Shown here one piece after another: positions 35,451 to 36,473 of a DNA stretch of 64,000 nucleotides (positions within the stretch are counted from its first letter, which is position 1; each line of letters starts with the position of its first letter). Source of the DNA: Calditrichota bacterium (lineage in GTDB: Bacteria; Zhuqueibacterota; Zhuqueibacteria; Zhuqueibacterales; Geothermadaptataceae). The stretch covers positions 434,001 to 498,000 of the forward strand of contig QQUE01000007.1 in assembly GCA_008501765.1 (NCBI GenBank), read 5' to 3'. The notes beneath the pieces were generated by a model. It was given only the letters and a program-made list of their open reading frames with translations, made no database searches and had not been told where the DNA came from. The translations under genes were made by a program, and so were the position numbers.

Positions 35451-36140
35451 TTAAACATTAAACCGGATTTCAATAACGTCCCGTGGCTGAACAATATAAT
35501 CCCGGTCAACCAGTTTTGCGGCCCCTTTTGAAATGCACTCTTTAAAATTATGAAATTTGAAATACTCTTCAAATGGAACGACATCTCCTTTAATAAATCC
35601 GCGCGCGAGGTCCGTGTGAATGGCACCGGCGCAAGTGACAATATCCGAACCACTTTTAACCAACCAGGCGTGGGATTCCGTCGGCCCGGAAGTATAAAAA
35701 AACATGTAATTTGCTGCCGCCAATGCCATTGCAATTATTTCATTTACCTCCTCATTGCCCGTTAATTTCACCACCGGTTTGTAGCTGTGGGGGGCGACTT
35801 CTTTTAAAACAGCATCCTCATCATCAGTGAATTGAAGTTCACATAAGGGGATTTCCTGCTCCAATTTTTCCAGGCATCGTTGCAACAGCACTTTTTCCGA
35901 GTCCTCGGTGAGACGATTAAGGCGGACTTCGATTTTCTCCATATCGAGGATTAATAAATCGAGAATATCGTTCGCCGGAATCACAATCACATCCGATTGT
36001 ACGAATTCATCCTGGATAAATTCGGCAAAAAATGGCGAGACTTTCTTGGGATTATCTTTTTCCTGCAGCGCAAGCAGGGCTTCATCATTATATTTTACTT
36101 TTCCTTCAGGAAGTTCAATTCCGGTAAAACCAATTTTCAT
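35451..36140 (-). CDS. YchF-related protein without a functional GTPase domain (DUF933/TGS)
   Basis: 229 residues from the ATG at 36140 (ribosome site GGAG six bases upstream). The C-terminal ~90 residues match the YchF/Obg-type TGS (DUF933) domain: NYMFFYTSGPTESHAW, AGAIHTDLARGFIKGDVV, YIVQPRDVIEIRFNV. Upstream is the helical stretch of YchF (DMEKIEVRLNRLTED). The start MKIGFTGIELPEGKVKY keeps the first strand of YchF but jumps to the region after switch I: no P-loop, no DxxG, no NKxD. So it cannot bind nucleotide in the YchF way. A regulator or decoy at YchF's ribosome site is conceivable. Confidence 0.82.
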   Translation of the reverse strand: MKIGFTGIELPEGKVKYNDEALLALQEKDNPKKVSPFFAEFIQDEFVQSDVIVIPANDILDLLILDMEKIEVRLNRLTEDSEKVLLQRCLEKLEQEIPLCELQFTDDEDAVLKEVAPHSYKPVVKLTGNEEVNEIIAMALAAANYMFFYTSGPTESHAWLVKSGSDIVTCAGAIHTDLARGFIKGDVVPFEEYFKFHNFKECISKGAAKLVDRDYIVQPRDVIEIRFNV

Positions 36141-36194
36141 CCAATACTCCAACTCATTAAATATTTATGCAACACAAGCGGTGCAATTTCTTCT

Positions 36195-36346
36195 AATTAG
36201 TGTCCATCCGGAAACGCTCCATCTTTCGTCATTCCTAAATGTTTTTATCGGGAATCCATAACCAGCTGAAGCCAAAAAACGATGAATTCCGTCTAAAAGC
36301 ATGACGGAATGACGCCGACTCAGGCATTTCCGGATGGACACTAATT
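36195..36346. mobile_element. 152-bp element with perfect 20-bp terminal inverted repeats
   Basis: AATTAGTGTCCATCCGGAAA (36195-36214) and its exact reverse complement (36327-36346) bound a non-coding core that holds a second inverted repeat (CGTCATTCC ... GGAATGACG). Size, ends and lack of coding frame fit a MITE. It lies 55 bases upstream of the YchF-like gene's start, so it may affect that promoter. Confidence 0.75.
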
Positions 36347-36473
36347 AATCTGCTGTTAGCGCAAATAATAAGAACAAAAATTAGCTAAGGTGCAAGGTTT
36401 AAATAAGAAAATGGTTTTGAAATTTAAACTGCTGATTTTACCTGCTATTTAAACAGAAATAGCAAAGCGCAGC

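Follow-up and report, generated by a model that had tools for sequence, protein, structure and literature searches.

YchF/OLA1 is called universally conserved, and YchF is known as a near-universal ribosome-linked ATPase with a role in translation. In a 2021 review (PMC8779481), the N-terminal ATPase domain of E. coli YchF is described as a major ribosome contact, the protein as redox-regulated through cysteines, and the exact roles of the helical and TGS domains as unknown. Hydrogen peroxide resistance and the translation of leaderless mRNA are traits that have been reported for the E. coli ychF deletion (PMC8138138 and PMC10502375). Among the matches listed in the open-access literature, no description of a YchF without its G domain was found.

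The locus described here lies in a stretch of 64,000 nucleotides (hereafter, the window), which belongs to contig C14 of a 5.9 Mb draft genome of 98.9% completeness (G000). An open frame at 35451–36140 on the minus strand encodes a shortened YchF of 229 residues plus a stop codon, approximately 140 residues shorter than YchF. Its start ATG is at 36140, and GGAG is found six bases upstream. The window also contains an imperfect inverted repeat upstream of the gene, at 36194–36347, which matches itself at 66% over 154 bases; no other copy was found within the window. The features of the gene are as follows.

35451..36140, minus strand: short YchF gene, 229 aa, stop codon within the coordinates; open frame with a DUF933 match
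35979..36140, minus strand: G-domain remnant (residues 1–54) that retains strand-like stretches but has neither P-loop nor switch I nor DxxG, according to alignments and a low-confidence model
35793..35978, minus strand: helical hairpin (residues 55–116), strongly acidic and some 10 residues short of its counterpart in full-length YchF, according to alignment and AlphaFold2
35706..35792, minus strand: link (residues 117–145), the former strand before NxxE (KPVVKLTGN), with the later G domain deleted, according to alignments
35454..35705, minus strand: TGS/DUF933 domain (residues 146–229), with a PF06071 match (E 2.5e-23) and superposition on 3hvz_A

Loss of the nucleotide-binding domain

A sequence-only reading of this DNA had proposed that the gene encodes a YchF paralogue that lost its GTPase motifs and kept the TGS/DUF933 end. 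The presence of a YchF form without G motifs at 35451–36140 was confirmed. In the window protein, PF06071 (YchF-GTPase_C/DUF933) was matched above the Pfam cut-off at residues 147–228 (E 2.5e-23), the TGS match was below the cut-off, and no Pfam GTPase domain was found. The NCBIfam profile of YchF, TIGR00092, gave 87.7 bits and did not reach its curated cut-off of 279.2; the best stretch corresponded to profile positions 265–368, i.e., mainly the C-terminal end.

On alignment with full-length relatives, residues 1–8 of the short form matched the first strand of YchF and were followed by a gap over the P-loop and switch I, after which ELPEGKVKYNDEALLAL aligned with the YchF stretch after switch I, in agreement with the sequence-only reading. 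Another in-frame gap covered DxxG and what comes after it, and further in-frame gaps removed approximately 10 hairpin residues and the whole span from NxxE up to the final helix ahead of the TGS domain. The same features were determined in 26 short forms, namely, 24 strict short forms and a divergent pair (G742 and G558). The Walker A motif or P-loop GxxxxGK[ST] (G1) was found in 0 of the 26, among which G002 is partial and without its N-terminus, and a Pfam GTPase domain was likewise found in none at E 0.01. DxxG (G3) and NxxE (G4) were missing at their places by alignment, with scattered matches elsewhere in some sequences. DUF933 was present in all 26. The helical domain between the G-domain halves was also present by alignment and prediction and was about 10 residues shorter. 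As the hairpin measured 58–59 residues in the 26 short forms versus 67–71 in 18 full-length proteins, the earlier description of the helical part as complete did not hold.

The leftover pieces of the G domain look like strand-forming stretches of YchF. Judged by these alignments, the protein is the descendant of a GTPase that has lost its nucleotide-binding motifs, which is one mark of a pseudoGTPase; a retained G fold is another. Because the G motifs that define YchF were tested and were absent, the short form was considered a YchF derivative and not YchF proper.

Structure, charge and conserved cysteines

The window protein was modelled with AlphaFold2 from a shallow alignment of 8 sequences, with a mean pLDDT of 69.6. 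The helical hairpin (helices at 56–74, 80–94 and 106–115) and the TGS domain were modelled with fair to confident scores, and the N-terminus was uncertain, with pLDDT below 50 at residues 1–16 and 32–51. All top structural matches of the model were YchF/OLA1 entries, including 8kie, which is YchF on the 50S subunit. In the case of 1jal_B, 217 residues were aligned with a Z score of 17.3 and an rmsd of 10.8. The rmsd values of the YchF/OLA1 matches were large (about 9 to 14), and the arrangement of the domains was therefore not reproduced. A solved TGS domain, 3hvz_A, superposed with a Z score of 9.0 and an rmsd of 1.1 over 64 residues.

The net charge of the arm of the window protein was −10 over residues 55–116 and −9 over residues 59–116. 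Across the 26 short forms, it ranged from −11 to −3 (mean −7.9), versus −5 to +1 (mean −1.7) in the 18 full-length proteins, so that the two ranges overlap. An RNA-binding cleft formed by the arm was considered as a candidate and is disfavoured because the helical arm is acidic. Positions conserved specifically in the short forms included, among others, C100, C170 and parts of the LPEGK stretch. C100 was kept in 22 and C170 in 24 of the 26 short forms, and a cysteine was found at either position in 0 of 18 full-length rows. Serine was found at position 100 of G591 and G688, and the divergent pair lacked C100 as well as C170.

Distribution and ancestry of the short form

Two other species of the window's genus, represented by G001 (97% complete) and G002 (67%), were found to carry the short form, which the sequence-only reading had suggested looking for in sister genomes. 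The proteins were 77% and 73% identical to the window protein, respectively, the latter over a partial sequence at a contig edge. Gene order around the short gene was conserved in all three genomes, and the contig of G002 ends inside the gene. When each species was represented by a single genome, the search yielded seven short-form loci that matched over their whole length, with record titles of Candidatus Scalindua (two), Neomarinimicrobiota, uncultured bacterium, Lentisphaerales, Calditrichaeota and bacterium isolate. Together with the identities and the gene order, these whole-length matches place the short form far above chance. The strict short form was then counted phylum by phylum. Of 392 genomes in the Scalindua phylum, 7 carry it, a number that includes the centre genome and G067. 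The phylum of the Lentisphaerales record gave 12 of 387 genomes (the centre genome included) and also the divergent pair. In the window's phylum, it was present in 3 of 82, all three in the window's genus. With G065 and G066, which came from the one-per-species scan alone, the strict short forms amounted to 24 different genomes. A full-length relative, G238, was also matched in the search of the 392 Scalindua-phylum genomes. The Neomarinimicrobiota record (G066) has, on contigs C42 and C65 (L111, L115), a short form nearly identical to the Scalindua one and a canonical YchF; one contig may be mis-binned.

No conserved neighbour that would name a pathway was found. Neighbour clusters, counted apart from the short gene itself and from opposite-strand frames overlapping it, extended to at most 3 of 18 groups, several loci having short flanks. 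The operon or conserved-neighbour reading was rejected on this count, as the three groups of the widest cluster (G620, G688 and G697) are close relatives of each other. As for mobile elements, no relative was found in viral contigs with search patterns suited to close relatives. Matching plasmid records numbered 71 and matching phage records 21, all under 60% identity; among five rows of each, the annotated ones were YchF or EngD.

A maximum-likelihood tree was computed from 66 rows, and all 24 strict short forms grouped in one clade with a support of 100/100. The trio of the window's genus (100/98) fell within a clade of 13 rows (100/100) together with eight Scalindua-type rows and with G511 and G514, both from the phylum of the Lentisphaerales record. 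Since the genus is nested inside a multi-phylum clade of short forms, the short form was likely transferred into it, and acquisition from another phylum is the simplest account because the other 79 of the 82 genomes of the window's phylum had no match at the threshold used. As a general picture, a local offshoot of the resident YchF is not supported, as the short form belongs to a clade of its own that is common to other phyla. The sister row of the short clade was G238 (99/88), but the length of its branch means that this position does not establish it as the parent. The divergent pair, made up of L143 in G742 and L152 in G558 (the latter on a contig of 5.96 Mb), has almost the same cut points and was placed outside the main clade, a placement in which well-supported branches force two changes. 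Two origins of the short form are thus favoured by the tree, with uncertainty from long branches and gaps.

The short form is under purifying selection. In the eight-member Scalindua-type group, omega was 0.040–0.085 in 22 of 28 pairs, the other six being dS-saturated, and in two Scalindua-type pairs examined by segment, residues 1–60 gave 0.07 and 0.11. The dS between the window gene and G001 was saturated, and the omega figures are those of the Scalindua-type group. In addition, no stop codon was found inside any short-form match or in the 14 short genes that were translated. The earlier view that the clean frame is not simply decaying thus agrees with the dN/dS check it had called for.

Carriers with and without full-length YchF

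The short form was the only YchF-family match in 19 of the 24 carriers, as counted by the YchF C-terminal domain: G001, G002, G064, G065, G067 and 14 of the 17 further carriers. Both the short form and a full-length YchF were found in five carriers (G000, G066, G102, G390 and G413). The divergent pair, which is outside the 24, also has a canonical YchF. For comparison, 40 genomes free of the short form, the first listed in the searches of the Scalindua phylum and of the phylum of the Lentisphaerales record, were analysed; 39 had one PF06071 match and G083 had none. The frame with the match in G075 was just 137 aa long. A Fisher test of 14 of 17 against 1 of 40 gave p of about 1e-9 with relatedness ignored. 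The 19 carriers are not independent because carriers cluster in few clades, and they are mostly draft assemblies of unknown completeness. Genomes without any YchF match also occur as a background: 6 of 60 relatives had none, nor did 14 of the 197 genomes that make up the class of G697, in which 11 known carriers have one YchF match each. Assembly gaps may therefore account for a few, but hardly for most, of the 19 absences.

A split gene, with the G domain in a separate protein, was rejected, since a TIGR00092 search (E 1e-12) of the 19 carriers with the short form alone revealed no YchF G domain on its own; a very divergent domain could escape this search. Besides the short form, 10 of the 19 showed one TIGR00092 match of 50–65 bits at the N-terminus of frames of 331–367 aa, and these matches were taken to be Obg.

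In the window's own genome, a full-length YchF, which the sequence-only reading had also suggested looking for, was found on contig C15. It is canonical, with GLPNVGKS, DIAGL and NVDE. The flanks on C15 match both sister species at 65–81%; thus, the contig belongs to G000, and an assembly gap or contamination was rejected as the source of this gene. Beside the homologous right flank, the sisters carry other sequence (G001:C58:1-639 and G002:C340:1-2224). At the corresponding place, no canonical YchF was found in the assemblies of G001 and G002, where the short form alone was found. As the contigs of G001 end near that place, a copy may lie in an assembly gap of G001. The canonical gene may have been gained in G000 or lost in the sisters. 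For a repeat of approximately 176 bases, the list of matches in G000 has about 40 entries, almost all with an identity of 91–97%; copies occur at L095:8727-8904 and L095:14525-14702, one of them directly upstream of the canonical YchF gene.

Interpretation

In our best explanation, which has about as much chance of being right as of being wrong, the short form is derived from YchF, works independently of nucleotides through the TGS end and the helical stalk, and in most carriers takes the place of YchF. Several in-frame deletions would have pared the nucleotide-binding domain to a small remnant and left the helical stalk and the TGS domain. Replacement of YchF by the short form is well supported and is more likely than regulation of YchF, whereas the molecular action is what we infer. 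Judged by its motifs, the protein would bind and hydrolyse neither ATP nor GTP and would still perform the part of YchF's work that belongs to the TGS and helical end; because it would have no nucleotide switch, it would be on whenever it is made. The main contact would be expected through the TGS face and not the arm, since full-length YchF has a longer and far less acidic arm, and the partner may be a protein rather than RNA. The idea that the short form occupies the same ribosomal site is weakened because the part that was lost is described as a major ribosome contact in E. coli (PMC8779481). In G000, which keeps both forms, the short form may be something other than a replacement. A broader reading is offered tentatively, and we would sooner doubt it than assert it: the core job of YchF would need no ATPase, and in several phyla selection would have taken away the nucleotide switch in its entirety, so that the TGS and helical end was left as the sole YchF of the cell and was then passed between phyla. 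The position of G742 and G558 outside the main clade, with nearly the same cut points, would mean that the switch was removed twice.

The remaining explanations were weighed against the same evidence. The short form may have left YchF function altogether, its TGS and helical parts serving as a binding module in a new job, in carriers that also lost YchF. The positions conserved only in short forms (C100, C170 and parts of the LPEGK stretch), the more acidic arm and the five genomes with both forms agree with such a change. However, a full-length YchF was missing from the matches of 19 of 24 carriers and a match was present in 39 of 40 non-carriers, a pattern that makes unrelated jobs hard to credit, and we consider this explanation rather unlikely. 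The same 19 carriers, in which no YchF to regulate was found, tell against a dominant-negative or regulatory paralogue that occupies the site of YchF without switching. This regulator had been the proposal of the sequence-only reading; it could apply in the five genomes with both forms (G000, G390, G413, G102 and G066), to which it is limited, and as a general account it is improbable.

Still on the side of control, the conserved cysteines could have taken the place of the nucleotide in a redox- or partner-controlled switch. Their frequencies in short forms, their absence from the 18 full-length rows and the redox regulation of E. coli YchF through cysteines (PMC8779481) point this way, but serine replaces C100 in G591 and G688 and the divergent pair has neither cysteine; such a switch seems quite improbable. 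A recent deletion allele or a decaying gene has nothing but the deletions themselves in its favour. It is contradicted by an architecture that recurs in 24 genomes from several phyla, united in a single supported clade, by omega values that indicate purifying selection and by the lack of internal stops, and it is hardly credible. The sequence-only reading had linked such an allele to a genome without full-length YchF and to a lack of conserved short homologues, and both the full-length gene and the homologues were found.

Comparison with known systems

Compared with YchF/OLA1, the short form has the TGS/DUF933 C-terminus, the helical hairpin and the first strand, so that common descent is clear. 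It differs in having no nucleotide-binding motif, in its shorter and more acidic arm and in being usually the sole family member found. A conserved and usually sole short form suggests that YchF can do something useful without enzyme activity, and a family that lacks the ATPase and persists, usually alone, offers a direct way to find out on which of its parts YchF depends.

Full-length YchF also occurs as another type, whose P-loop is GLPxSGKT-like (e.g., in G004 and G034, with G238 as the neighbour in the tree), and this type too bears comparison: every short form gives a better score with a protein of this type, G057, than with the canonical YchF of G000. Unlike the short form, this type has its full length and its P-loop. 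The relatives examined extended to the class of the window's genome, and of their 61 non-short rows, fragments included, 46 also score higher against a protein of the GLPxSGKT-like type than against canonical YchF. In a neighbouring family, f2, two rows were aligned and showed EYVKVQG or EYVKVPG in the DxxG region, and the weakening of G motifs is therefore wider than the short form.

Other TGS proteins, namely, RelA/SpoT, ThrRS and DRG/Rbg1, share the TGS fold (Rbg1, 4a9a_B: Z 8.3, rmsd 2.5, 73 residues), but the short form has no attached synthetase, ligase or GTPase domain. The p190RhoGAP domains and degenerate septins, which are pseudoGTPases, keep the G fold with changed residues. They share with the short form a descent from a G domain with nucleotide binding lost. 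In contrast to them, most of the G domain has been deleted in the short form, which seems to be a stand-in for its own ancestor.
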